Shown here: positions 40,324 to 58,400 of the stretch, piece by piece
How the letters are laid out: the number at the start of each line of letters is the position of its first letter
How positions within the stretch are numbered: the stretch's first letter is position 1
Assembly: GCF_913776015.1 (NCBI RefSeq)
Contig: NZ_CAJYMD010000014.1
Span: forward strand, 1-58,834
From: an uncultured Oxalicibacterium sp.
GTDB lineage: Bacteria > Pseudomonadota > Gammaproteobacteria > Burkholderiales > Burkholderiaceae_D
DNA: 58,834 bases
Reading direction: 5' to 3'
Notes under the pieces: model-generated
What the model was told of the DNA's origin: nothing
What the model saw: only the letters and a program-made list of their open reading frames with translations
The model's database searches: none
Position numbers and translations under genes: made by a program

Positions 40324-42369
40324 TCAGATATCGACAGGATCGACTTCAAGCGACCAGCGCACACGCGTTTTCATTGCCCGCAAATGCGTCATCCATTCTT
40401 TCAGGAAGGCTTGCAACGCAGGACGCGAACCACATTCAACCAGCAACTGCGCCCGATCGACATTGGCGACACGCGTCATGGTCATCGGCACCGGATCGTT
40501 GACGGTGATATCGGCGTTATCCACACAGGCAACCGCAGCACGCAGGAAATCCAGCGCCTGCTGCAATTCGCGTGCTTCGGCACGCAGCAAGGCTTGATAC
40601 ATGAATGGCGGAAAGCACGCCTGTCGTCGCTCGTCGAGTAACTCCCCCGCAAAGCGATCGTAATCATGCGCACGCACGGCAGCGTACAAGGGATGATGCG
40701 GATAACGCGTCTGGATCAATACTTCGGCCGCGTTGCCGTCTTCCTTCTGTGCAGCGCGCCCCGCACGGCCAGCGACCTGCATTAATTGTGCAAACAGGCG
40801 TTCGCTGGCGCGGTAGTCATGTGAGAACAAAGCAGTATCGGGATTGAGTACGCCGACCAGTGTGAGATTCTGGAAATCGTGCCCCTTGGCGACCATTTGC
40901 GTGCCGATCAGGATATCGACCTCGCCGCGATGCACGGCATCGAACGCCTGCTGCGCACTTCCCTTGCGGCGCGTGGAGTCCGCATCGATGCGCAAAATAC
41001 GCGCTTCGGGAAAGATCGCCTGCAAGGTTTCCTCGACACGCTGCGTGCCTTGCCCGAGCGGTTGCAGATCAACATTGCCGCAATCGGGGCAGCCGAGCGG
41101 AATGCGTTGTTCGAAACCACAGTGATGGCAGCGCAAGCGACGGTCGCGCTTGTGCAGCACCATGAAAGCGCTGCAACGCGTGCAATTGCTGATCCAGCCG
41201 CAGCTATCGCAATTCAGTACGGGCGCATAACCGCGGCGGTTGAGAAACAGCAGCGATTGTTCGCCACGCTCGATGCGTTTTCGTACCGCTGCCAGCAAGG
41301 TCGCACTCAAGCCTTCGGTCAGTTGCTCACGCGGTGCCTTGCGCTCCAGATCGATCAATCCAACTTTGGGCAGGACGGCATCGGCCACCGCACGTTCGCG
41401 CAATTCGAGCTTGCGATACCGGCCCGACTGCACGTGCTGCCAAGTTTCCAGCGAGGGCGTGGCCGAGCCGAGCACCACCGGAATCGCCAACTGATGCGCA
41501 CGCCAGATCGCCAGATCACGCGCCGAATAGCGCAAGCCTTCCTGCTGTTTATAGGAGGGATCGTGCTCTTCATCGACGATGATGAGCTTCAGATGCGGCA
41601 GCGAAGCAAGGATCGCCAGCCGCGTACCCAGCACAATGCGCGCGTGCCCGGTATGCGCCGCCATCCAGTGCTGCAGACGCTCGCCTTCGGCCAGTCCACT
41701 GTGCAGCGTGGCTACCGTCACCCCCGGAAAACGCGCGCGTACATTGGCATCGAGCTGCGGCGTCAGGTTGATTTCGGGCACCAGAATCAGCACTTGCGCT
41801 GCCTGCCCGTCGGCTGCGGCCTTCGCCAGCATGTGGGCAACCGCATGCAAATACACTTCCGTCTTGCCACTGCCGGTGACGCCGTACAGCAGCACCGGCT
41901 GGAATCCGGCCAAGTCGGCAATGGCATCGGCGGCGGTCTGTTGCGCCCGGTTCAGCACAGGCGCATCGCGCGGCGTCACATCTGCATTCTCTGCGGCAGC
42001 CGCCAGCTTCTTGAGCGCCTTGTCGAGTGAGGTGGTTTTGATGCCGCGCAGATTCTTGGGCAAACCGGGCAAGGCCACTTCGCCTAGCGGGCGCTGGTAA
42101 TAATCGGCGGCAAACGCACACAGGTCCAACCACTGCGCCGATAACGGCGGCATCTGGCTGCGCACGGCCAACGCGGCTTTCAATTTTTCACGCGGCACAT
42201 CGCTTTCCTGCGACATGCCGATGATGAGGCCCACTGTTTCACGTCGTCCGAACGGTACCAGCGCCAATTGCCCGACCTGCGGCACAACACCGTCTACGGG
42301 CTGCCACAAGTAGTCAAACGAATTGTCAAGCGGGGTATCGAGCGCGATCTGGAGAATGCGAGCGTCCAC
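40324..42369 (-). CDS. priA: Primosomal replication protein N' (PriA helicase)
   Basis: A 681-residue PriA, which reloads the replicative helicase at stalled forks. Features: N-terminal 3'-end-binding domain (1-105), Walker A GVTGSGKTEVYL (about 165), DEEH box VDEEHDPSYKQ, eight zinc-binding cysteines (CDSCG, CTRC, CHHC, CPDC), then QMVAKGHDFQNLTLVGV and QVAGRAGRA. First gene of the priA-DUF2164-LprI-ElaA unit. The 1.1 kb DnaA-box-rich region lies directly upstream. Confidence 0.97.
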   Translation of the reverse strand: MDARILQIALDTPLDNSFDYLWQPVDGVVPQVGQLALVPFGRRETVGLIIGMSQESDVPREKLKAALAVRSQMPPLSAQWLDLCAFAADYYQRPLGEVALPGLPKNLRGIKTTSLDKALKKLAAAAENADVTPRDAPVLNRAQQTAADAIADLAGFQPVLLYGVTGSGKTEVYLHAVAHMLAKAAADGQAAQVLILVPEINLTPQLDANVRARFPGVTVATLHSGLAEGERLQHWMAAHTGHARIVLGTRLAILASLPHLKLIIVDEEHDPSYKQQEGLRYSARDLAIWRAHQLAIPVVLGSATPSLETWQHVQSGRYRKLELRERAVADAVLPKVGLIDLERKAPREQLTEGLSATLLAAVRKRIERGEQSLLFLNRRGYAPVLNCDSCGWISNCTRCSAFMVLHKRDRRLRCHHCGFEQRIPLGCPDCGNVDLQPLGQGTQRVEETLQAIFPEARILRIDADSTRRKGSAQQAFDAVHRGEVDILIGTQMVAKGHDFQNLTLVGVLNPDTALFSHDYRASERLFAQLMQVAGRAGRAAQKEDGNAAEVLIQTRYPHHPLYAAVRAHDYDRFAGELLDERRQACFPPFMYQALLRAEARELQQALDFLRAAVACVDNADITVNDPVPMTMTRVANVDRAQLLVECGSRPALQAFLKEWMTHLRAMKTRVRWSLEVDPVDI

Positions 42370-42442
42370 GAGTTAAGGTAAATCCTGAAGAAATGAGCTA
42401 ACTGTACGTTTCATAAGTGCTTTTTCAGCTATCCACATCCTT

Positions 42443-42560
42443 TGTGGATAACTTTGTGCATAAGCATACCTTGACACACGGAACAGCAAGGAAACGTGCG
42501 GGTTTCAACAGATTGCTCAAAAGCCGTGCAAAAAATGACGCCTTAAAAATCAATGACTTA
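42443..42560. repeat. Diverged direct repeat, copy A, within the DnaA-box region
   Basis: Carries, in order, a 16-base block TGTGGATAACTTTGTG, CGGGTTTCAA (42499) and ATCAATGACTTA (42549). The same three blocks recur in the same order and nearly the same spacing 769-770 bases on (copy B). Confidence 0.7.
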
Positions 42561-43212
42561 GAAACATTCTTCAGCGGCGAGAAATTTTCTTGAAAAATTT
42601 TTTGGCGCTTTTCGACAAATTCATTTATGTGCATAAGTAAGTACGAAGGTAACGCCTATCCCTATCCTGAAAGTAATTCTTACAAAGAACCATCAACAAG
42701 CGCTGACAATTGATTTTGTAGATGGCGTCCGCCGATCTCTCACAAATGTTGCAATCGCACATGAAGCTGATCGTCATTGGGGAAAATCGCGCTAACTCAC
42801 GGTTTTCCAAACACTTTTTCATTTACCCACATCATCTGTGGATAACTTTGTGAACAACTGGATGGTAATCGATAATCGCCTGATCAGACTTTTACGACCC
42901 TGCTCTGCTAACCATCAAACAATCGAATTTTCTCTTTTATATTCAATGCATTAGCATGTTTACGGAAAATGAACCATGCAGAAGACGATAACCGTTCTTA
43001 TCCATGTGCATGCACCATTTTGTGAATAAGCTTTCGCGGTTTGCGCCAAAACACATTCTTTTTGGCAATTTTTACACAGTGATATTCACCTTTTTAGTAC
43101 TGCGGCAAACCAGCCTGTTCTGATGAAAGCAAGTTAACAATCTGAAGTGATTTCTCAACTCGTGCGCTAACTGTTCGATTATTAAGAGGTTTTTCGACTC
43201 TTCCACAAATCC

Positions 43213-43329
43213 TGTGGATAACTTTGTGGGTAACTCAACAAATCGCCCGCTCAAGCCCGATTCCACGCGGGTTTCAATAAAATGCCAAAACAAAAAGCAG
43301 ATTTTTTAACCAATAGAATCAATGACTTA
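43213..43329. repeat. Diverged direct repeat, copy B, within the DnaA-box region
   Basis: The counterpart of copy A: the 16-base DnaA-box block at 43213, CGGGTTTCAA at 43268 and ATCAATGACTTA at 43318. A third copy of the 16-base block alone is at 42837. Confidence 0.7.
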
Positions 43330-43475
43330 TAAATTCGCCTTCGTACGTCAACCCACATAAGTTGCCACGTATGATAGTGCTTACCCACTCCCATATTCTG
43401 TGCATAAATGGGTGTGTGGGGCGGAAAACCGGCGCCTTTGTCAAGCCATTTATTTTCTTTACGTCAATACCTCGC

Positions 43476-44558
43476 TCAGGCTTTGTGCAAAGGACGGCTC
43501 ATGGTGTGCACGGCATCCACCAGCGTTGCAACGGCTTCTGGGGGCGTGAATTGCGAAATACCGTGCCCGAGGTTGAATACATGCCCCGAACCTGCGCCAT
43601 GCGCGCCGAAGCTATCGAGTACCTTGGCAACTTCCTGGCGAATCTGTTCCGGTCCGGCAAACAGCACGGTTGGGTCGAGATTGCCTTGCAACGCGACGCG
43701 ATTGCCAACGGCGGCACGCGCCTTGGTCAGATTCACGGTCCAATCCAGGCCGACGGCATCGGCACCGATATCGGCAATTTCTTCCAGCCACAAGCCACCG
43801 CCCTTGGTAAACACGATGCTCGGAATGCGCTGACCATTCTTTTCCTTTTGCAGCGCCTGCACCACCTCACGCGTGTATTGGAGCGAAAACTGCTGGTAGA
43901 TCCCATCAGCCAAGGCACCGCCCCACGTATCGAAGATCATCACGGCTTGCGCACCAGCATCGATCTGTGCATTCAGATAGGCCGCCACCGTTGCCGCATT
44001 CACGGAAAGAATGTGGCGCATGAGGTCCGGGCGGTTATACAGCATGGCTTTGACGGTACGGAAGTCATCCGAACCACCGCCCTCGACCATATAACAGGCG
44101 AGCGTCCAGGGACTGCCGGAAAACCCGATCAGCGGCACGCGTCCGGCCAGCGTCGTACGGATTTGCGTAACGGCATCGAATACGTATTGCAAACGTTCCA
44201 TTGGCGGCACTGCCAGCGCCTGCACCTGCTTTTCGTCGCGCAAGGGCCGCTCGAAACGTGGCCCTTCGCCTTCGACGAAATACAGGCCGAGGCCCATCGC
44301 ATCCGGTACCGTCAGGATGTCCGAAAACAGGATGGCGGCATCCAGCGCATAACGATCCAGCGGTTGCAACGTGACTTCCGTTGCGAAATCGGGATTCTGC
44401 GCCAGGCCAAGGAAGGAACCGGCACGCGCGCGCGTCGCCCGATATTCCGGCAGATAGCGCCCGGCCTGACGCATGAGCCACAGCGGCGTGTATTCAACAG
44501 GTTCACGCAGCAGTGCGCGCAGGAAGGTGTCGTTCTGAAGCGGAGCGAAATGTGACAT
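43476..44558 (-). CDS. hemE: Uroporphyrinogen decarboxylase HemE
   Basis: A 360-residue HemE, which decarboxylates uroporphyrinogen III to coproporphyrinogen III in haem synthesis. Signature N-terminal [15 protein letters not shown] and central [19 protein letters not shown] are present, with the catalytic Asp in [14 protein letters not shown]. Length fits the family (about 355). It lies 1.1 kb from priA, a neighbourhood common in betaproteobacteria (from memory). Confidence 0.97.
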
Positions 44559-44694: not shown

Positions 44695-46533
44695 TTATTT
44701 TGCGGGGCTGCTGGTTTCGCTGGTAATCAGCCAGCGTCCCTCCACCAGTTCCCACTGCAGCGTTTTTTGCACGATGTCCTGGTATTTTTCCGAACGATAG
44801 TTTTGCTTGAAGGTGGCTTGTGCCTTGCTGCCCTTCACATCGATCTTGAGATTCTCGATGCGCAAATCGATCTTGCCGGCGTTGGCCAGCGCACGTGTGC
44901 GCTGCTCTGCCCACACTTCACGCGTGACACCGTTCGCAGGCGTGAAGCCCGCCGAATAGGCAGCCAGATAGGCACTTGGTTCACGACGTACCCAGGCGGC
45001 AATCCAGCGATCCAGTGCATCGGTAACCGCCTTGGTGGCAGCTTCCGACGAAACCGGCGCGCTCGGCATTACAGGGGTTGGGGTTGGCGCTGCCGCGGCA
45101 ATACCCGCAGGCTGCACGCCTTGTGGAATCGATTCATTCACGAGTTGTTCGGCACGCGCATCCAGCGCCGATTTGTCCACGACGTAGGTCACCGGGCCTT
45201 CCGGTGGGCAACCCACCACATCTTCCATGCCATCGTTCGAACGTTCAGGCAACGTGGTCGTCTGTGGCCTTGCCAGTTCCAGCATCTGGAACAGTTTGCC
45301 CATACCAGCCTGCGCGCGTGCATACGCAATGGCGAGATCATATTGCGCATTGGTGTAAGCGCGGCGCGACTGGAAGAGTTCGTTTTCGGTATCGAGTACG
45401 TCCAGCAGGCTGCGCTGGCCGATATCGAATTGCTTGCGATAGGCATCGCGCGCCTTCTCGATGGCAAGCTGGTGTTGATCCAGATACGTCAGTTGCTCGC
45501 GCAGCTTGCGCGTATCGTTGTAAGCGATTTCCAGTGTCTGGCGCAGATCGCGGCAGGTTTTGTCACGTTGTTCGCGCGCAGTATTGATCTGCTCTGCATA
45601 CTGACGAACACGTGCACGGTCGCTGCCACCATTGAAGATGTTCCAGCTCATCACGACTTCTGCGGTATTGATGCGGCTTTCACCGATCGGGCCGGTACTG
45701 GCCGAGACGTTGGTGCCGCGATCATTACGCAGGCGGAAATCGAAACGTGGCTGGAAAGCGGCATTGCGCGTTTTGGCAGCGCTATTGGCCGAACGCACGT
45801 TTTCCATTGCAGCCAGCAAGGCAGGATTGCTGCCGGCATCATTCAAGGCGGTACGCAAATCGGCAGGCAAACCGCGCTCGAATCCGGTTGGCATGATCAT
45901 GTCCTTGCCGGGCACCGCGCCGACCAGTCGCTGGAAACGTGCGCTGACATCGTGCAAGTTCGAGGTATCGACCAGCAGGTTGGATTCGGCCAATGCCAGA
46001 CGGCCGCTGGCCTGTTCAAGATCGACACGGCGACCGACACCGGCGGCCGTCTTGCGCTGAATCTGTTCGTAGACGGCACGATGGCGCACATAGTTTTCTT
46101 CTGCCGACGTGACCAGCTCGCGCTGACGCATGACATCGGCATAGGCTCGCACGACCTCAAGCGTCGTCGTTTCGGTGATGTCGTATAACTGATAGAGACG
46201 CACGCGACGCGCATAATCAAGACGTGCCACTTCGTTACTCGTGGCAAAACCATCGTAGATCAGTTGCGTCAGCGTAACGTTGGTCGTACGACGATTGCGT
46301 TCGTCGGCTATCGGCTCCTGATAACGATCGCGACCGACAGCGGCATTCACATCGACGCGCGGCAGGAAGGCACCGAATGCCACATCTTTTTCTGCATCCG
46401 CTGATTCAAACGCATGCATTTGTGCGCGAATTTCCGGGTTTGATAACACTGCCTGTTGCGCTGCTTCTTTCAATGTCTGGGCATGCCCGGCAAGAGGTGC
46501 GAGCAAGAGTAATCCGCAACAAATCTTTTTCAT
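44695..46533 (-). CDS. TolC/LapE-like outer membrane protein with C-terminal NTF2-like domain
   Basis: A 612-residue protein. The signal peptide (1-19, ending GHA) is followed by two repeats of the TolC/OEP family (about 20-430: QAVLSNPEIRAQ, RRVDLEQASGRLALAES, GQRSLLDVLDTENELFQSR), which form the trimeric exit duct of type I secretion. An unusual linker (about 440-500, Pro/Ala-rich) leads to an extra globular domain (about 505-612, DALDRWIAAWVRREPSAYLAAY ... WELVEGRWLITSE) that looks like a SnoaL/NTF2 fold. Divergent lapG and lapD and the giant adhesin make it the likely adhesin exporter. The ATG at 46533 has a weak ribosome binding site. Confidence 0.88.
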   Translation of the reverse strand: MKKICCGLLLLAPLAGHAQTLKEAAQQAVLSNPEIRAQMHAFESADAEKDVAFGAFLPRVDVNAAVGRDRYQEPIADERNRRTTNVTLTQLIYDGFATSNEVARLDYARRVRLYQLYDITETTTLEVVRAYADVMRQRELVTSAEENYVRHRAVYEQIQRKTAAGVGRRVDLEQASGRLALAESNLLVDTSNLHDVSARFQRLVGAVPGKDMIMPTGFERGLPADLRTALNDAGSNPALLAAMENVRSANSAAKTRNAAFQPRFDFRLRNDRGTNVSASTGPIGESRINTAEVVMSWNIFNGGSDRARVRQYAEQINTAREQRDKTCRDLRQTLEIAYNDTRKLREQLTYLDQHQLAIEKARDAYRKQFDIGQRSLLDVLDTENELFQSRRAYTNAQYDLAIAYARAQAGMGKLFQMLELARPQTTTLPERSNDGMEDVVGCPPEGPVTYVVDKSALDARAEQLVNESIPQGVQPAGIAAAAPTPTPVMPSAPVSSEAATKAVTDALDRWIAAWVRREPSAYLAAYSAGFTPANGVTREVWAEQRTRALANAGKIDLRIENLKIDVKGSKAQATFKQNYRSEKYQDIVQKTLQWELVEGRWLITSETSSPAK

Positions 46534-46631
46534 TTTCAATTGTTTCTCACGAGCAGTGTTGCCAAAAATTACGTTATACAAGGTTTTAAATTTACGAATG
46601 AAAATTTTTGTTAAAGTCTGCGAAGATAGGG

Positions 46632-46654
46632 TTGCCACATGGAAATGTGTGGCA
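46632..46654. promoter_or_regulatory. Repeat/dyad 1 in the tolC-lapG divergent gap
   Basis: TTGCCACATGGAAATGT here recurs exactly at 46793-46809. With the following GTGGCA it forms a dyad (TGCCACAT...TGTGGCA). It lies between the two start codons and is a candidate operator. Confidence 0.45.
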
Positions 46655-46723
46655 TAAATCACGCTGCTTTCTCTCTGGCAAAATGACTGTCACAATCGTT
46701 TTTCCTTCCTTAGTGAATCGCCC

Positions 46724-47407
46724 TTGAACAAGTGCCTGTCTCGCATGGCATGGCTGCATCTCGTTGCACTGATGCTGATCGCGTGCTTTGTATTGCCACA
46801 TGGAAATGTTAAGGCAATCGATTTCACGCGCCTGCAACAAGCGATGCAAACACTCGGCGGCAACAAGCAGAATGTCATCGACTGGCAACGCGTGATGGAA
46901 GAAAGCCAGGCTTTCAGTACGAATGACAAACTGCGACGCATCAATGAATTCTTCAATCGCCGCATCCAGTTTCGTAGCGACATGGAAATCTGGCGTCAAA
47001 GCGATTACTGGGCAACGCCACTCGAAACCCTGGCCAAGGGTGCCGGCGACTGCGAAGACTTCACCATCGCCAAATATTTCACCCTGCTGCATCTCGGCAT
47101 TCCTGTCGAACAGTTGCGACTCATTTACGTCAAGGCACGCATTGGCGGCACTGCCAGCAATGTGCAAGTGGCACACATGGTGCTGGCCTACTACCCTTCT
47201 CCCGACGCCGAGCCACTGGTACTCGACAATCTGATCACCGACATTCGCCCGGCTTCACGCCGCAGCGACCTGCAACCGGTGTTCAGCTTCAACAGCCAAG
47301 GCATCTTCGCCGGCGTGGAAGGCCATGCCACGGTAGGCAGCGGCGGTGTGCAACAACTCTCGCGCTGGAGTGATCTGTTGCAGCGCGCACGCGAACAAGG
47401 TTTTTGA
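46724..47407 (+). CDS. lapG: LapG-like periplasmic cysteine protease (BTLCP family)
   Basis: A 227-residue bacterial transglutaminase-like cysteine protease. The signal peptide ends near NVKA-ID; the catalytic triad is Cys in GDCEDFTIAKYF, His in AHMVLAYY and Asp in LVLDNL. LapG cuts the N-terminal retention module of LapA-type adhesins, releasing them from the cell. The TTG at 46724 gives a proper basic n-region (MNKCLSRM); ATG at 46745 is the alternative. It is 43 bases from lapD. The adhesin's own cleavage site lies outside the window. Confidence 0.93.
   Translation: MNKCLSRMAWLHLVALMLIACFVLPHGNVKAIDFTRLQQAMQTLGGNKQNVIDWQRVMEESQAFSTNDKLRRINEFFNRRIQFRSDMEIWRQSDYWATPLETLAKGAGDCEDFTIAKYFTLLHLGIPVEQLRLIYVKARIGGTASNVQVAHMVLAYYPSPDAEPLVLDNLITDIRPASRRSDLQPVFSFNSQGIFAGVEGHATVGSGGVQQLSRWSDLLQRAREQGF
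46793..46809. promoter_or_regulatory. Repeat 2, inside the lapG signal-peptide coding region
   Basis: Second exact copy of TTGCCACATGGAAATGT, 161 bases after the first; here it is flanked by ATTGCC and GGCAAT, giving another dyad. A pair of sites at this spacing could support a loop over the lapG promoter. Confidence 0.4.
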
Positions 47408-47450
47408 ATAACGCAACGTATGTGACTCAGGAAAGACGAAGGAAAAAATC

Positions 47451-49361
47451 ATGTCGATGTATCGTCAACTATGGCTGGCTCTGATCCTCAGCACTGCACT
47501 TGCGCTGATCGGCGGTTTTCTCGCCTCCACGCTGAGTGCACGCACCTATCTGGAAGAACAGTTGCGGCTCAAGAACAATGACACAGCAACAGCGCTGGCG
47601 CTTTCGCTCAGTCGCGGCGGGGTCGATACGATCGAAATGGAACTGGCGACAGCAGCGCTGTTCGACAGCGGTTACTTCCAATCCATTCGCATCGTCGGCC
47701 CACGCGGCGAGATGCTTGTTGAACGCACCGCAGGCGATCTCGATGCTGGTGCGCCAGCGTGGTTCATTCACACACTCCCGATCAGCGCGCCGGCAGGTCA
47801 AGCCAGCATCAGCGATGGCTGGAAACAGTTGGGCACCGTGCAGGTGACCAGTCAGCATGCTTTCGTATATCGCACCTTGTGGTCATCGACCCAGCAACTG
47901 GCACTGGCATTGTTGTTGGCAGGCCTGGTCGGCGCATATCTGAGCACACTGATCCTGCGTCGCATCAAAAAGCCGCTCGACAAGGTCGTCGAACAGGCAC
48001 GTGCCATCAGTGATCGCCGCTTCCTCACCACACCGGAACCCAAGGTACCGGAACTACGCCAGCTTGTGGCTGCGATGAACTCATCCGTTATGCGTCTCAA
48101 GAGCATGTTCGATGAAGAAACCGTACGTCTCGATCAACTCAAACGGGAAGCCAATCACGATGCGTTGACAGGCCTGCTCAATCGCACGCGCTTCATGGCC
48201 GGACTCAAAGCCTTTCTCGATGTCGATGAAGGACACCGCGGTCATCTGCTGCTGATTCGCATCGCGCACCTGGCTGACATCAATCGCAAACTTGGTCGTG
48301 AATCCACTGACGCGTTGTTGCAACGTATTGGCACCACCATCGACCATTTCTGCGCTCCATTGCCCGGTGCATTGAGCGCTCGTCTCAATGGCGCCGACTT
48401 CGCCATCATGCTGCCCGATGCATGGGACGCACGAACAAAAGCCGATGAACTGCTGCAGCAATTAGTCGCCACCGCTTCCGTCTATGTACCGGATCAGGCA
48501 ATTGCTTTCATCGGCATCGGCTCGTTCCAACAAGGCGAAATGCTGGGTACCTTGCTGGAACGCGTGGACCATGCACTCGCCAAGGTGGAAGCAACCAATA
48601 CCAACGGCATTCACGAAAGTACGACAGTCGGTATGGAGTCGTTGCCAAGCAATGCTGAAGAATGGAGCAAGACGCTCAACGAAGCCATTCAGCATGGCCG
48701 CACCAAGCTCGCCCTCTTCCCCGTACTCGACAATCACAATCAGGTGGTGCATCGCGAAAGTGCCTTGCGCATTCAGATTAGTGATGGAGTCGAATGGCTG
48801 CCGGCTGGCCGCTTCCTGTGGATTGCCGAACGCCTCGGCATGACTGGCGTACTGGATCTGATCGCAGTACGCCACGGCTTGGAAGAATTGGCGCGTGACC
48901 AAGCCCTGCCCGGACTGGCCATCAATCTGTCCGGCGAATCGCTGCACGATGCCACGTTCTTGCAAAACATCAAGGCGCTCTTGCACAAGCATCCCCTTGC
49001 TAGCCAGCGTCTGTTGCTGGAAATCCCTGAATACGGCGTGCTCGCACACTTGGCGGCATTCCGTCGCTTCTGTAGCGACATCGCGCAGCATGGCTGCCGC
49101 GTCGGCATTGAGCACTTCGGCCGCCAGTTCAGTCAGATCGGCAAACTGCACGAACTCGAATTCCATTACCTCAAGGTCGATGCAAGCTTCATCCGCGAAC
49201 TCGATACCAATGCCAGCAACCATGCTTTCCTCAAAGGCATGATCAACATCGTGCATCTGATCGATCTGCAAATCTTTGCCGAAGGCGTATCCACTGAAGC
49301 CGAATTGAGCATACTGCGTACACTGGATTTCGATGGTGCAACAGGGCCTGCCGTGCGTTAA
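47451..49361 (+). CDS. lapD: LapD-like c-di-GMP receptor (degenerate GGDEF-EAL)
   Basis: A 636-residue inner-membrane receptor. Membrane segments at about 8-28 and 150-170 flank a periplasmic LapD/MoxY domain that in LapD traps LapG. A HAMP segment (about 170-225, IKKPLDKVVEQARAI) leads to a GGDEF domain (about 235-385) with the signature degraded to NGADF, and an EAL domain (about 400-636) where the EAL motif reads ESALR; both should be enzymatically dead and bind c-di-GMP only. At high c-di-GMP it holds LapG inactive and the adhesin stays on the surface (known in Pseudomonas). AAGGA precedes the ATG. Confidence 0.93.
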   Translation: MSMYRQLWLALILSTALALIGGFLASTLSARTYLEEQLRLKNNDTATALALSLSRGGVDTIEMELATAALFDSGYFQSIRIVGPRGEMLVERTAGDLDAGAPAWFIHTLPISAPAGQASISDGWKQLGTVQVTSQHAFVYRTLWSSTQQLALALLLAGLVGAYLSTLILRRIKKPLDKVVEQARAISDRRFLTTPEPKVPELRQLVAAMNSSVMRLKSMFDEETVRLDQLKREANHDALTGLLNRTRFMAGLKAFLDVDEGHRGHLLLIRIAHLADINRKLGRESTDALLQRIGTTIDHFCAPLPGALSARLNGADFAIMLPDAWDARTKADELLQQLVATASVYVPDQAIAFIGIGSFQQGEMLGTLLERVDHALAKVEATNTNGIHESTTVGMESLPSNAEEWSKTLNEAIQHGRTKLALFPVLDNHNQVVHRESALRIQISDGVEWLPAGRFLWIAERLGMTGVLDLIAVRHGLEELARDQALPGLAINLSGESLHDATFLQNIKALLHKHPLASQRLLLEIPEYGVLAHLAAFRRFCSDIAQHGCRVGIEHFGRQFSQIGKLHELEFHYLKVDASFIRELDTNASNHAFLKGMINIVHLIDLQIFAEGVSTEAELSILRTLDFDGATGPAVR

Positions 49362-49417
49362 AGCTGTAAACAAGTGAACTTCGCTTTGACGGATCCCCAG
49401 TCTGACGCAGAGAAAAT

Positions 49418-49448
49418 AAAAAAAGCCCGTCTTGTGACGGGCTTTTTT
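49418..49448. terminator. Bidirectional terminator between lapD and the adhesin gene
   Basis: AAAAAAGCCCGTC and GACGGGCTTTTTT pair around TTGT, with T-runs on both strands, 57 bases after lapD and 16 bases after the adhesin stop codon. Confidence 0.94.
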
Positions 49449-49463
49449 GTGGCCGGATATTGA

Positions 49464-52400
49464 TCAGTCCGTCTGCAGCTTGCCGCGAGTGATCAGATCC
49501 TGAATCACCTGCTGATCGCCACTCATGCCATTGAGCAGATTGACGCCTTGCAGGATGATGGTCTGATCTTCATTGGCGGCGTTGTAACCGTTACTGAAAC
49601 CGCCACTACTACTGATGTGGACCTTGGTGTCCGAACCGACTGTCTCGAAATGCAGATAGTTGGTCAGGTTGGTACCCACGCCCTGACCGATCTCGCCTTG
49701 CAGCAGATCGCGCAGATCCAGCTTGTCACCGCCTGTCACGCTATCGAAATCGGTGATGGTATCGATGGCAGGCGCACCGACCGCACCCTTGTCAGCCAGC
49801 ATCCACTTGAAGGTATCGGCACCGAGCCCGCCCGTCAGCGTGTCGTTGCCGGCACCACCGATGAGGATGTCGTTACCCGCACCGCCATTCAAGATGTCGT
49901 TACCCGCGCCGCCATCAAGACGATCCGCGCCCGTGCCACCGTACAGCGTATCGTTACCGGCACCACCGATCAGCACGTCATTGCCGGCACCACCGTACAG
50001 AATGTCATCCGTGCTGCCGCCGATCAGAATTTCATCGGCATCCGTACCGTGGATGGTTGTACCGGAGACGTGATAAATGTCGGCCGTAGCAGAGGACGTG
50101 ACACCATTTTCCGTCACGGTGTAATCAAACTGCGCCGACTCGGACAATGGCCCCTGTATCTGATCGAGCGTCACCAGCAGGTTGTAATTCGTGTTGCTGT
50201 TGGTGGAAATCGTTGCGGTTTCGACCCGAATATAGAACTCGCCGTCGGTCGGTGCGACAAAGTAGCCATTCGGTGCCGAGCCCGTGCCGGTTCCAGTATT
50301 GGTAATCTGTACCGTCTGCAACACGCCCAGCGAATCATAGTATTCGACATAGGCATTCATGGCCGCAGTCTGGTTATCAACATCGACAAAGATACGCTCT
50401 CCGGCAAACAAAGCCATCTTGACGTAGTCGCTGTCACGCACGGTGTTCGAACGATTGTTGATCGTGCCGCTGAAGACTTGCGTACTGCCTGCCACATCCA
50501 CCGCCCAGGCCTGACCACCTGGCAAGACCGTGCCGAATCCTTCGCGCAACATCTCGAACGCATTGGCACGATCATCGTTGATTGGCGTCTGACCGCCCTG
50601 CGTATTGTCCAGCAAGGCTTCTTTCGTCACCTTGATCGCCGTGCCGCTGCTCGCGCCAGCAGTCGGTGTAAAGGTGATCGTACCGCTACCACTGACCGAA
50701 CCATTGACGGCGTTCTGCGAACTCGTCACGGTGGCACTGGTGCCCGTTGCATCGTTGTGCAACAACGCATCCGACGAGATCGTAATTGCCGTACCAGTTT
50801 GCACATTGGTCAGGATCGTATCGCGATTGGCATCAAGGTTGGCGATGTAATCGAGATTGACCTTCAGGTTGATGGTCTTGGCGTCCCCATCGCCGTCGAC
50901 TGCCGTTACCTGGAAAACTTCCTGCTGGTTCTGTGTGGTCTTGTTGACTGCCAACGTGTACGTATAACTACCTGTCACGAAGTTCAGCTCCAGTACGCCA
51001 CCCTTGTTGGTCGCAATGGAAACAGAACCGCTACCATTATTAGTATAAGTTTGACCATCGACTGTGACGCTCTGGATCGCGCCACCATCGGCCCCGAGCA
51101 AGAACCCGTGTGTAGCATTACCACTCAAGACGCCGAGGTTGCCTGTTACCAGACCGGAACCCACAGTTGCCAGCAGGGTGTCGGCCAGATCCGCCGCGTT
51201 GTTAACCTTGATCGCATAGTCTTCCACGCCATTGCCATCGGCATCCGTATTCGGATACGCAATCGGCAGCAACGCATTCAACGAAGCACTTCCGATACCG
51301 ATACCAAAAGCAACATCACCATTGGCTGCAACGAAGTTTTGCCACTGTGTCTGCTGCGTGGCATTTACGGCGAAACCTGAACTTGGCTCACCATCGGTAA
51401 TGAAGTAGAACAAGGTCTTGTCTGCTGCCGGCTTGGTAAAGCCATTCATCGTTTCATTCAGTGCAGTCGAATACTCGGTACCACCAGACGACTGGATACC
51501 GTTGATGTAACTGACCGCGTTGCCTTTATCATCCATGAACCAGTCGGTTTCGTTGACTGCCGCGCTACCACTCGCCGTACTGGAAAAATCGATGATCTTG
51601 ACGTTCACGTTGCCCAAGCCATCATAGCGGTCGATCAATTTGGCTAACGCCTCTTTGGCAATTTCCATCCTCACCGTAGAAGGATCGTAGCCAGACTGGA
51701 ACGAGTAATTGCCGTTAGCATCCGTGGCCATACTGCCCGAACGATCCAGAATGATGACAAGGTTATACGTGAGCGAAGTCGATGCAGCCTGAAGCGTTTG
51801 CTCAATATCGCCACCGATTGGAACATCGTCGACGATATTCACCGTCATCGTGGCATTCGTCGTCTGGTTCGTGAAAGTGTCACGCGCGACATAATTGAAC
51901 GTTGGATGATCATTGACACCCTCTGTCGTCTTGCTTACAAGCGTATAGGTATAGGCACCTGTATTGGCATTAACAACCAGTGTTCCGATCGAGTCGGTCA
52001 CCGTGATGGTGCCGTTGGATGCTGTCACGCCGTTGACGCTGGTAATGATGGTACTCGGTGTCACGCCGGCATCATTGTCGAATAGATTGCCGCTGGCCGT
52101 CACAGGCAATGCAGCATTACCTGCCTGCGTACCACCGGCAAGGCCGGACTCGTACACCGTGGCAGTATCCGCAATTGCCGTCACCACACTATCGGTAGAG
52201 ACCGTAAGCGTCGTGGTGGAAGCACTACCATCGGCGTCAGTCAGTGTGTAAGTGAACTGATCCGGTGTAACAGCCGTCAGATCTGGCGTGGCGGTCAGTC
52301 CGTTGACGCGATAGGCAGAACCATTGGTACCCGAGAGCACAATGTACTGAAAAGGCGAATTTGCGCTGATCGTCGCACTGGCGATATTGCCTGAAACTCC

Positions 52401-55400
52401 GGCAATCGTCCCCGAAACAACTAGTGCGCCATTTGCATCATAAGCTCGCCATTGCGCAGTTTCACCTGCAGATAGATCCGTCAAAGTGATACTGGTGCTA
52501 CGGCTAGCCATACCAAGATTCAAGACAAGATGCTCACCATTCTCAATGCGGTCATTATTATTTCCTGTGTTATTCGAGTTTTCGACACCAACACCATCGT
52601 TGTTAGTACCGCTGTTATCACGCTGACGCACGATGCCAGATGCTGTGCCAGTTAAGGCAGACAGACTCAAGTTGTTATTACCATTGGTCAGCGGCGATGT
52701 GCCGTCGAAGCCAAACAAAGAGATTCCGGCCGCACTCCAGCCGGCAATTGTCGCTGCCGTCGCAGACGAAGAAGTCACCACCTTGTTCTGATAATTCGAC
52801 GAATACGTGTAGGCACCCGTATCGTTGATAACCAACGTACCGTTCGTCGTTGTGATCGTGGTGTTCGACGACGTGAGGTTATACGTCGTACCGCCAAAGA
52901 CGATGCTCGATACGCGAGCGGCATCGCCACCTAGCATATCCGGCCCACCTGTTCCACCGGCACCCGTGATGACGTTACCCGCCACGCTTGCCACACTATT
53001 TGTCGATTGATCGCGATAACCGATGCCGACACTATCCGTATCGGGATTAGCAACCGGTGCCGAGTCGGTAACATTGATCTGCACCGTGGTCCAACCCGAA
53101 TTAAGACTGCCATCCGAAGCGCGGTAGACGAAACTGTCGATGTCCGAAATGTTGTCCGCATGGTTACGTATCGGTGCCGTATAAGTAAACGTACCGTCGG
53201 CATTCATCACGACCGTGCCACCCAGCGCTGTAGTAATGGCGTTGCTGCCATTGACGGTAGTAGCGGTCGAGCCGCTATTGGTCGCAAATTGCGCGACGGT
53301 GAGCGTGGTCGAATCAACGTCGGTGTCGTTGGCCAGCACGTTGCCGCGCACGACTGTCTTACCTTCGACGACACTATTGCTGCCGTTGTAGTTATCAGCC
53401 ACACCGACTGGCGCATCGTTCACGGCAATTACATTGATCGTGGCAACGGCCGTGTTGCTGTTGCTTTGTCCATCGTTGACCACAACGTTGATGATGCGCG
53501 GCGTAGTACTCGGATTTTCGCTGGTGCTGCTGTAAGTAATCGCACGGATCGCTGTCTGGTAATTCGCCAGCGAGGCATTACCGCTGAGCGTAATGACATT
53601 GCCATTGACACTAGCCGTGATACCGGCAGGCATCGTACCCACCGTCATTACATCGCCGGCTTGGGCATTGGTCAGCGTGATGGTAGCGCTTGCCAATGTG
53701 CTTGAGTCCACATCGGTGATGGCGATATCGGTATCAGCGATGCTGATACCCGCACCGTTTTCCGTGTAACTCGTTACATAGTTGTTGCCCGTTGTGGTGG
53801 AATTGTTGCCATCAAGGTCGATCGCTGGTGGCTGATCGTTATCGATGATGGTGCCCGTACCAGTTGCGGTCGCGATCGTTGCATTACCTGGATTGCTGAG
53901 AGTAACGGTAAAGGTTTCGGACGATTCGGCAACCGTATCGTTGATGATCGGTACCGTGATGGTCTTAGTCGTTTGACCAGGAGAAAACGTGAGCGAACCG
54001 CTGACAGCCGTGTAATCGCTACCAGCGGTTGCCGTGCCATTGTTGCTGGCGTAATTGACCGTGACGTTCTGGCCCGATGCGGCAGACAGCGTGACCGTAA
54101 AGGTTGCCGTACCAGCCGATTCATTGACCGAAACGTTGTTGATCGACAGGCTCGGCGTTGGATCGTTATCAAGGATAATGCCGGTACCCGTGACGCCACC
54201 GATGATCAATGGCACGGTTTCGTTGGCTTCATCCAGCACATCGTCCACTGTGGGTAGCGTAACGGTAAATGTTGTCACACCGGCCGGCACGCTCAGGATA
54301 CCGCCGCTTAATGTCACGCCATTGCTGAACGTTGGCGTGCCGTAATCGGAGGTGGAGGCCGTGCCACCGCCCAAGGTGTAGGCAAAGTTGGTTGTTGTCG
54401 TCGATGTACCGGTGACGTTGACCGTATAAATCAGCGCTGTACCTTCATTGACGCTCGGGCTGCTGATAGAGGCGATGACCGGTGCTGCATCGTTGTCCAC
54501 AATGGTACCGACACCAAGATTGTCACTGATGGTGGCGTTGGTTGGCGAAACCAGATTGACGTTGAAGGTTTCATTGCCTTCGAACACCGTGTCATTGATG
54601 ATCGGCACGGTGATGGTCTTGGTAGTTTCACCCGGGGCAAACGTCAGCGTGCCATTGACAGCCGTGTAATCGCTGCCAGCCGTCGCCGTGCCATTGCTGG
54701 TGTTGTAGCCGACGGTGACCGGCTGGCCGGAAGCGGTCGACAAAGTGACCGTAAACGTGGCCGTGCCGGCATCTTCGTTGACGTTCACATCGTTGATCGA
54801 GAGGCTCGGTTGCGCATCGTTGTCGTTGATCGTGCCGAGGCCTGTCACGCCACCAATGACAAGCGGGACCGTTTCACTCGTTTCATTGAGCGCATCATCC
54901 ACTGTTGGCAACGTGACTGTGAAGCTCGTCACGCCGGCCGGTACGCTCAAGATACCGCCGCTCAATGTCACGCCGTTGCTGAAGGTCGGCGTGCCGTAAT
55001 CGCTCGTGGATGCCGTACCACCACCCAACGTGTAGGCAAAGTTCGTCGACGTGCTTGATGTGCCTGTCACGTTAACCGTGTACACCAGCGACGTTCCTTC
55101 CGTTACGGTCGGACTACTGACCGAATTGATAACTGGGACCGGATCGTTATCGACAATCGTGCCAACGCCCAAATTGTCGCTGATCGTCGCATTGTTCGGA
55201 CTGCTCAGATTGATATTGAAGGTTTCATTACCTTCATAGACTGTGTCGTTGGTGATCTGAACCGTGATCGTCTTCGTCGTTTCACCCGGCGCAAACGTCA
55301 GTGTGCCATTGACTGCTGTGTAATCGCTGCCGGCCGTCGCCGTACCATTGCTGCTGGCGTAGTTGACAGTAACGCTCTGGCCAGATACGGCCGACAAGGT

Positions 55401-58400
55401 GACGGTGAAGGTTGCCGTGCCAGCAGATTCGTTGACCGAAACATCGTTGATCGACAGGCTTGGGGCCGCATCGTTATCGAGAATCGTACCAGTGCCAGTC
55501 ACGCCACCAATGACGAGCGGCACCGTTTCATTCGGTTCGTTCAGCGCATCATCAACTGTCGGCAACGTCACCGTGAAGGTGGTGACGCCGGCCGGCACAA
55601 TCAGATTGCCGCCACTGAGGGTGACACCGTTACTGAAGGTTGGCGTACCGTAATCGCCCGCCGAAGCCGTACCGCCACCCAGTGTGTAGGCAAAGCTGGT
55701 CGATGTACTCGACGTGCCCGTCACATTCACTGTGTAGACCAGTGCAGACCCTTCGTTGACACTCGGACTGCTGATACTACCGATAGTTGGTGCGGCATCG
55801 TTATCGACAATGGTACCCACACCGAGGTTGTCACTGATCGTGGCGTTGGTCGCACCCGTCAGGTTAACGTTGAAGGTTTCATTGCCCTCGAAGACGGTGT
55901 CGTCACTAATCGCAATCGTAATGGTCTTCGTCGTTTCGCCCGGCGCAAAAGTCAGGGTGCCGTTGGTAGCCGTATAGTCGCTACCGGCCGTGGCCGTACC
56001 GTTGCTGGTGTTGTAACCAACCGTGACTTGCTGGCCGGAAGCTGCAGACAAAGTAACCGTGAAGGTTGCCGTGCCTGCGCTTTCATTTACGCTGACATCA
56101 TTGATCGACAGACTCGGTTGCGCATCGTTATCGATGATCGTACCCGTACCCGTTACACCACCAATTTGCAGTGGCACAGTTTCATTCGGTTCGTTGATGG
56201 CATCGTCCAGCGTCTGTACGGTGACCGTGAAGTTGGTCACACCGGCAGGCACAATCAAATTGCCACCACTGAGCGTGACACCGTTGCTGAAGGTCGGTGT
56301 AGCGGTACTGTAATCCGATCCTGCCGTCGCCGTACCACCGCCCAGTTGATAAGCAAAGCTGGTCGATGTGCTTGACGTACCTGTCACGCTGACGTTGTAA
56401 ACCAGCGTACCGCCCTCGCCAGTACTTGGGTTGTTGATCGAATTGATCACGGGTACCGGATCGTTATCGACGATGGTGCCAACGCCTTGGCTGTCGGCAA
56501 TCGTCGCATTGACGGCATTGGTGAGATTGATGTTGAAGGTTTCATCACCTTCATGCACGGCATCGTTATTGATTTGTACCGTGATGGTTTTGGTGGTTTC
56601 ACCTGGCGCGAACGTCAATGTGCCGTTGACCGATCCATAGTCATTACCGGCCGTTGCGGTGCCATCAGCGCTAGCATAGTTGACGGTAACAGACTGCCCC
56701 GATACCGCAGACAAGGTCACCGTGAACGTCGCCGTACCCGCGGCCTCGTTGACGGATACATCATTGATCGTCAGGCTTGGTGCCACATCGTTATCGACGA
56801 TGGTACCCACGCCCTGGTTATCAGAAATCGTGGCGTTGGTGGCACCCGTCAGATTGACGTTGAATGTTTCACTACCTTCGCTCAAGGTATCGTCGGTGAT
56901 TGGTACCGTGATGGTTTTAGTGATTTCACCCGGTGCAAATGTCAGCGTGCCACTGATGGCGGTGTAATCGCTACCCGCCATTGCGGTGCCATTGCTGGTG
57001 TTGTAGCCAACCGTGACTTGCTGGCCGGATGCTGCCGAAAGCGTGACTGTGAAGGTTGCCGTGCCTGCGCCTTCATTCACGCTCACATCGTTGATCGATA
57101 GGCTCGGTTGCGCATCGTTGTCTGTGATCGTGCCGGTGCCAGTGACGCCGCCAATAACCAGCGGCACGGTTTCACTCGGTTCATTGATGGCATCGTCAAT
57201 CGTTTGTACACTAACCGTGAAGTTGGTCACGCCGGCAGGCACGCTAATCGTGCCGTTGCTGCTGTCATACGTCACACCGTTGCTGAAGGTCGGCGCACTT
57301 GTGCTGTAGTCGGCACCCGCGGTCGCGGTACCGCCACCCAGAACGAACGTGAACGTCGTCGGCATGCTCGATGTGCCATTGACGTTGACGTTATAAACCA
57401 GCGTGCCGCCCTCTGCCGTACTCGGATTGTTGATCGCAGAAATGACCGGCACAGGATCGTTATCGACAATCGTGCCCACGCCTTGCGCATCGACAATGAT
57501 GGCATTGACCGGATTGCTCAGGTTGACCGTGAAGGTTTCACTGTTTTCATGGAGGATATCGTTGGTGATAGGAACAATGATGGTCTTGATCGTTTCACCC
57601 GGATTGAATGTCAACGTACCGTTGACCGACGAGTAATCGCTACCGGCAATCGCCGTGCCATCTGCCGTGCTGTAATTGACCGACACGGTCTGACCGGATG
57701 CAGCCGACAGGGTTACTGTAAAGGTCGCCGTTCCTGCCGCCTCGTTGACACTCACATCGTTGATCGAGAAGCTCGGTGCATTATCGTTATCGACGATCGT
57801 ACCGACCGCATTGACACCACCCACGGAAATCGCCAACGTTTCATTTGCTTCCGGCAATGCATCATCCACCGTCGGGATCGTCACGGTAAAGCTGGTCACA
57901 CCAGCTGGCACAACAAGATTGCCACCAACCAGCGTCACGCCATTACTGAACGTTGGCGTGCCGTAATCGCCGGCACTGGCATTACTGCTGCCACCGCCCA
58001 GTGTGAAAGCAAAATTCGAATCAACGCTCGATGCATTCGACAAGGTCACGGTATGCACCAATGCGTTGCCTTCGACCTTGCTGTCGTTGGTGACCGACTG
58101 GATCGTTGGCGCATTGTCGTCATCGATGATCGTACCGGTGCCGGTGACGCCACCGATGTGCAGCGGTACGGTTTCATCCGGTTCGTCGATACTGTCTTGC
58201 GTGGTTGGAACGATGACATTGAAACCGGTCACACCAGCTGGCACCGTGATCGTGCCGGCCACTGGATCATAAGTCACACCATTCGTGAATGTTGGCGTGC
58301 CGTAATCGCTTGTTCCTGCCGTGCCACCGCCGAGCGTAAATGAATAGGTCGTCGATGTGCTCGATGGATTCGTCAGCGTGACCGCATAGGTTAAATCTCC

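Follow-up and report, generated by a model that had tools for sequence, protein, structure and literature searches.

The gap between hemE and priA

The window, by which we mean the whole 58.8-kb stretch of DNA that was analysed, carries the genes for uroporphyrinogen decarboxylase (hemE) and the replication restart helicase PriA (priA) on the same strand, separated by a gap that is bounded by the priA start at 42369 and the hemE stop at 43476 (Table 1). An earlier note on this DNA had drawn attention to eight exact TTWTNCACA boxes in the gap, seven of them co-oriented, in AT-rich and gene-free surroundings, and this description is borne out: the eight boxes are spread over 42443-43407, all of them on the minus strand but for one on the plus strand, the A+T content of 42370-43475 is 59.5%, and no ORF of at least 80 aa lies wholly within the gap, two antisense ORFs starting at 43362 and 43408 and running into hemE. 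The 16-base block said to be repeated identically, TGTGGATAACTTTGTG, does occur three times, and the asserted excess of boxes over chance is confirmed by 2000 dinucleotide shuffles of 42370-43475, which held 0.23 boxes on average and three at most. Across the whole window there are 10 exact boxes against a shuffle mean of 2.9, a number reached in none of 100 shuffles. The draft genome to which the window belongs (3.16 Mb) contains 45 sites matching TTATNCACA, seven of them in the gap, and 26 sites matching the same pattern read backward as a control. No relative of the gap was found among 72,556 plasmid records, and a terminator scan of the gap region gave one match, no excess over shuffles. 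Upstream of hemE, at 44695-58823, a gene for a TolC-family outer-membrane protein comes first, followed by a LapG/LapD-like pair at 46.7-49.4 kb; the same interval holds a gene for what looks like an adhesin of 3119 aa, rich in repeats and resembling calcium-binding proteins at its C-terminus (pair and adhesin were named by eye).

The earlier note overlooked that the gap is built of repeated modules, that the exact boxes have mismatched partners and that IHF consensus sites stand at fixed distances from them. Three diverged tandem modules of approximately 390 bp each, spaced 394 and 376 bp, make up the gap (Table 1). In all three the core is formed by a box on the plus strand, a box on the minus strand 14 bp later and a further minus-strand box 12 bp after that, measured start to start (14/12 spacing). 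None of 2000 shuffles of the gap contained such a three-box core, and none other was found, with up to three mismatches, in the window or in the 154.7-kb contig C51 of the same genome. Searched at the same threshold, the genome as a whole gave four weak matches outside the array, one of them in the oriC cluster described below; none has an IHF site (up to one mismatch) at 50-110 bp, and the weak match at C40:25675 does not adjoin xseA, which is at C40:47001. We also considered a recent simple tandem duplication and rejected it, repeat finders having detected only two-copy tandem units of 12 bp and diverged copies 376-394 bp apart; since the module copies are recognised only in this diverged form, they are evidently old.

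Table 1. Features of the hemE-priA gap and its flanking genes (positions in the window)
Feature	Position	Strand	Basis or remark
priA (replication restart helicase PriA), flanking gene	40324..42369	-	NCBIfam equivalog NF004067, 963 bits, above cut-off
Module A, DARS-type three-box core	42429..42463	+	14/12 spacing, start to start, the same as in E. coli DARS1/DARS2
Module A box I CTATCCACA	42429-42437	+	core geometry
Module A box II TTATCCACA	42443-42451	-	core geometry
Module A box III TTATGCACA	42455-42463	-	core geometry
Module A IHF consensus AATCAATGACTTA	42548..42560	+	exact WATCAANNNNTTR; starts 85 bp past core end
Module A distal DnaA box TTATGCACA	42628..42636	-	+199 from core start
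Module B three-box core	42823..42857	+	14/12 geometry
Module B box I TTACCCACA	42823-42831	+	core geometry
Module B box II TTATCCACA	42837-42845	-	core geometry
Module B box III TTGTTCACA	42849-42857	-	core geometry
Module B IHF-like site ATTCAATGCATTA	42941..42953	+	one mismatch; starts 84 bp past core
Module B distal DnaA box TTATTCACA	43021..43029	-	+198 from core start
Extra DnaA box TTTTACACA, outside module layout	43070..43078	+	exact TTWTNCACA match
Module C three-box core	43199..43233	+	14/12 geometry
Module C box I TCTTCCACA	43199-43207	+	core geometry
Module C box II TTATCCACA	43213-43221	-	core geometry
Module C box III TTACCCACA	43225-43233	-	core geometry
Module C IHF consensus AATCAATGACTTA	43317..43329	+	exact match; starts 84 bp past core
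Module C distal DnaA box TTATGCACA	43399..43407	-	+200 from core start
hemE (uroporphyrinogen decarboxylase), flanking gene	43476..44558	-	NCBIfam equivalog TIGR01464, 419 bits, above cut-off

Position of the chromosomal origin

The origin of Caulobacter adjoins hemE, and the DnaA-box density, the IHF site and the A+T content of the gap resemble an oriC, so that the gap might be taken for a chromosomal origin, shifted or second, as the earlier note had proposed. We find this hardly credible, because in all three genomes examined the GC-skew change point falls at another cluster of TTATCCACA. Skew was analysed over 384 kb of G010, 220 kb of G002 and 155 kb of the window's own draft genome, G000 (contig C51), as against whole chromosomes; G010 and G002 are two of three single-contig genomes of the same genus, and their contigs start at dnaA. 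The best change point of G010 lies at -49.3 kb from that start (support -49.3 to -34.3) and coincides with a cluster of six TTATCCACA in mirrored arrangement; a change point at the hemE array, which lies at -84.6 kb, is worse by 53 log-likelihood units. In G002 the best change point is at -67.3 kb from the dnaA contig start (support -67.3 to -56.3), with the array at -105.9 kb and 28 units worse. The array is hence 35-40 kb from the change point in both of these complete genomes and there is no skew switch at it in either. Placing the change point at dnaA is also worse, by 36 units in G010 and 48 in G002.

The array and the origin-like cluster are on different contigs in G000, where the skew changes at C51:108 kb (107-109). 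Four TTATCCACA lie next to this point, at 109.26-109.79 kb, in the gap before a gene that looks by eye like an aldehyde dehydrogenase, 2.5 kb from mnmG/gidA. The skew-minimum clusters of G000, G002 and G010 all have TAGTAGTAA repeats adjoining a DnaA box, repeats which we take to be the DnaA-trio of bacterial unwinding regions and which have no match beside a DnaA box in the 58.8-kb window. An oriC of this genus and the hemE-priA array therefore share TTATCCACA boxes in intergenic DNA, but the former has DnaA-trio-like repeats and a skew minimum and the array has neither. The interval C51:109106-109857 is likely to be the true oriC of the window's own genome. It consists of a 360-bp tandem duplication (L077:9106-9857), each copy holding TATATA, TAGTAGTAA, TGTGGATAA and a reverse TTATCCACA. 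In the origin cluster of G010 the two halves are mirror images separated by approximately 1.2 kb, and the intervening sequence looks coding. Outside the array, cores with up to three mismatches number one in the 384 kb of G010, which has three mismatches, lies within the origin cluster and is without an IHF site, and none in the 220 kb of G002.

The view that origins in this group usually sit by dnaA does not hold for these genomes: of 18 dnaA loci compared (13 of the same genus and five from other genera of the family; a contig start truncates three of them), just one reaches three boxes, 16 have one or two, and the remaining locus is without any. The accessible text of PMC4948915 leaves open where exactly the main chromosome of Burkholderia cenocepacia has its origin, and notes a second DnaA-box cluster; the present analysis separates two types of DnaA-box cluster, oriC and hemE-priA array, within one genus.

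Conservation in relatives

HemE was detected in 39 of 40 genomes (the window's own included), and its loci were pooled with named-genome loci drawn from the best 80 of 593 HemE loci. The resulting 93 hemE-priA gaps comprise 13 of the same genus, again with our own, and 80 from outside it; 17 of the 110 hemE loci gave no such gap and were left out. Every same-genus gap contains two or three strict cores, nine having three and four having two, although these counts have no tree behind them and are not independent because the genomes share ancestry; in the four gaps with two cores it is the middle module that fails. Outside the genus, at least one strict core is present in 31 of the 80 gaps and none in 49. 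All 73 cores in the 93 gaps point the same way, and the distance from core to IHF site is 84-86 bp in nearly all relatives that have a core.

We aligned the gaps on TGTGGATAA, which provided 145 anchors. The plus-strand box peaks at -14 (54 anchors), the minus-strand box at +12 (79) and the exact IHF consensus at +104 to +106 (66), and when the genus is removed (86 anchors) the same features recur at -14 in 20, at +12 in 40 and at +105 to +107 in 40. Minor peaks at -26 and +92/+93 reflect anchors that sit on box III. A usable anchor is present in 67 of the 80 non-genus gaps and lacking in 13. Of the 67, 57 have an IHF site at +103 to +109 (up to one mismatch; exact in 40) and 10 do not, a result carrying a slight bias toward our reading since the anchor with the best IHF score was retained where a gap had several. 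A distal minus-strand box (up to one mismatch) follows in 49 of the 57 IHF-bearing gaps, at +172-180 or +185-191, two distance classes approximately one helical turn apart. Box I is less constant, being found with up to two mismatches in 24 of the 57; the next best of 32 offsets (-40 to -9) gives seven. At 18 of the 86 non-genus anchors a further exact IHF consensus lies on the other strand just upstream of box I, 44-46 bp ahead of box II.

Box I is kept with up to one mismatch at loci of Noviherbaspirillum, Collimonas, Duganella, Ralstonia, Dechloromonas, Azoarcus, Nitrotoga and Sulfurimicrobium, and it is degenerate beside a retained IHF site at, for example, loci of Caballeronia, Pandoraea, Pararobbsia, Ramlibacter and Acidovorax. 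The 10 anchored gaps short of an IHF site include those of Burkholderia L152 and Paraburkholderia L135 and L140, which have no box I, three to four mismatches at the IHF position and an exact distal box; Bordetella L168 is without box I and has two mismatches in its IHF site. The Janthinobacterium loci have box I not in the element anchored on TGTGGATAA but in a neighbouring core with TGTTGATAA.

The core pattern (up to one mismatch) occurs in 208 of 300 genomes of the order, our own included, and the pattern read backward gave 0 in every row; because this pattern required box I, the survey cannot reveal the loss of box I at other loci. Among 30 loci fetched from the longer list of matches, 11 show hemE and/or priA, one of these being the window's own, and 19 have no match to either gene; an IHF site (up to one mismatch) stands at 84-87 bp in 15 of these 19. 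The flanking ORFs of 13 of the 19 were scanned: eight loci adjoin xseA (L100, L101, L103, L104, L105, L106, L116 and L117), one adjoins uup, one yifB/comM, and three gave no family. The side of xseA, which encodes exonuclease VII, is thus a second recurrent home of core and IHF elements in other Betaproteobacteria. At the eight xseA-linked loci, with their IHF sites 84-87 bp past the core, a distal box (up to one mismatch) was seen only once, at the second core of L105, so that core and IHF site together look like the unit. L116 and L117, from two genomes of the same family as the window's, have five 14/12 cores in a row beside xseA (approximately 820-1535 on the reverse strand), some 140-180 bp apart, several of the cores having TGTGGACAA boxes, with an IHF site (up to one mismatch) at the last core only. 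Across the phylum 160 of 299 genomes contain the core, which is therefore not special to Betaproteobacteria.

DARS-like sites recur by genes of DNA maintenance: besides priA and xseA, these are uup (L094), yifB/comM (L096) and, in E. coli, uvrB (DARS1) and mutH (DARS2). This adjacency would suit a role in which DnaA and IHF binding mainly regulates priA transcription, coupling the restart helicase to the initiation cycle, as would the position of the core nearest priA, whose start precedes that of the priA homology by 49-122 bp in 33 of 44 core-bearing gaps. We nevertheless regard such a role as very doubtful: the promoter scan of 42300-43500 gave a single promoter-like match, where shuffles averaged 2.1, and this match lies on the strand that leads away from priA; moreover, three modules across 1.1 kb are more than one promoter needs.

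Likeness to DARS1, DARS2 and datA

A DARS core is described in the accessible part of PMC5742627 as three boxes, spaced equally in DARS1 and DARS2, with box I opposite to boxes II and III, the head-to-head pair of boxes I and II being a prominent feature. The sequences of DARS1 and DARS2, taken from E. coli MG1655, show the same plus, minus and minus boxes at 14 and 12 bp; this geometry is exact in all three modules, and no such core is in the shuffles. DARS2 requires IHF, the position of which matters, a 10-bp shift of the IHF sites leaving moderate or partial activity (PMC4245941, in its accessible text), and every module has a predicted IHF site at a set distance past the core (0, 1 and 0 mismatches at 85, 84 and 84 bp). 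Judging from these sequence features, we consider it somewhat probable that the gap holds, in tandem, three DARS2-like, IHF-dependent elements that recharge DnaA. The earlier note had left the choice between a datA/DARS-like locus and an origin; the number, orientation and spacing of the core boxes and the fixed IHF distance uphold a DARS-like identity, whereas the origin falls away.

Such an array might work as follows. ADP-DnaA, which is to be expected in this cell because the genome encodes Hda (above cut-off; it also has three IHF/HU-family genes), would bind boxes I-III, IHF would bend the module DNA, and the head-to-head pair of DnaA molecules would let go of ADP; the freed apo-DnaA could then reload with ATP and so raise initiation capacity at the separate oriC. 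The distal box may allow feedback by ATP-DnaA, by analogy with box V of DARS2, triplication would provide greater capacity, and a place near oriC would double the dose early after initiation. The sign of the effect, recharging or inactivating DnaA, is something we infer. Some observations run counter to recharging. The interval between core and IHF site (83-84 bp between) fits datA (84) better than DARS2 (74); the middle module fails in four of the 13 genus gaps; and box I, crucial in DARS, is found in only 24 of the 57 IHF-keeping gaps outside the genus, so that the locus of many relatives must have a role independent of box I.

E. coli datA, between glyVXY and queG, reads in reverse as a box (-), 84 bp, an IHF site (+), 56 bp and a box (-), and the modules read box III (-), 84, 83 or 83 bp, an IHF site (+), 67-69 bp and the distal box (-), in the same relative orientation; datA differs in its shorter interval from IHF to distal box and in having no 14/12 three-box core. 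This frame would suit a datA-like inactivator and sink, at which IHF would loop the distal box onto boxes II and III, ATP-DnaA would oligomerise and hydrolyse its ATP, and the many high-affinity boxes would titrate DnaA; early duplication beside oriC would then block re-initiation. Gaps without box I mostly keep the frame (IHF in 57/67 and distal box in 49/57 outside the genus), and proximity to oriC would favour titration and early dosage, to go by the accessible text of PMC12371093. The missing core of datA argues against this, as do the xseA-linked loci, with core and IHF and a distal box in only one of eight, and those gaps that have lost a good IHF site together with box I (Burkholderia, Paraburkholderia and Bordetella, above). 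Alternatively, each module of approximately 210 bp could be a two-way switch that fuses DARS and datA, the core recharging ADP-DnaA and the IHF-looped core hydrolysing ATP-DnaA. Given the datA frame and its retention in most gaps without box I, we hold the datA-like role to be possible, if on the unlikely side, and the two-way switch to be decidedly unlikely. Were the switch real, E. coli would have split both functions between separate loci, and lineages that lack box I and keep IHF (e.g. the Caballeronia, Pandoraea and Acidovorax loci) would retain the inactivating half only.

DARS1- and DARS2-like sequences are conserved in many proteobacteria according to the accessible text of PMC10380432. 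A review, as far as its text is accessible, speaks of beta- or gamma-proteobacteria proximal to E. coli (PMC5742627), whereas according to the primary paper (PMC4245941) the DARS2 core is confined to gammaproteobacteria related to E. coli. Our search of titles, abstracts and listings found no report that places a DARS or an array of DnaA boxes in the hemE-priA gap, none of a DARS in Betaproteobacteria and none of a tandem DARS. Hence, the kind of element is already known, and its tandem, oriC-near and datA-framed form appears to be new. The recharging and retiring of DnaA outside the relatives of E. coli has little experimental coverage in the accessible literature. With a rule of sequence (a 14/12 core, an IHF start 84-86 bp later, and a distal box), candidate loci for DnaA control can now be picked out in many Betaproteobacteria and their function put directly to the test, and the natural loss of box I in some lineages offers a ready series of mutants that could separate recharging from inactivation.

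On the DARS2-like reading that we prefer, the closest known counterparts are the two E. coli sites. DARS2, between rppH and mutH, shares with the modules the three-box core in spacing and orientation, a downstream IHF site on the same strand and a further exact box past the IHF sites. Its IHF sites are two one-mismatch matches (2729 and 2745 of L069) 3 bp apart, a spacing also stated in the accessible text of PMC4245941; the second begins 75 bp past the core, compared with 84-85 bp in the modules and thus about one helical turn nearer, and reads AGTCAATGCATTA on the module strand, with one mismatch like the site of module B. DARS2 differs in being a single mid-arm copy with other neighbours, as opposed to three tandem copies 35-40 kb from oriC (in two relatives), in the opposite strand of its distal box, and in its IBS1-2 pair, where each module has one IHF site at the expected place. 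DARS1, between bioD and uvrB, has the same core geometry and an identical box II, but is without an IHF consensus (up to one mismatch) near its core.
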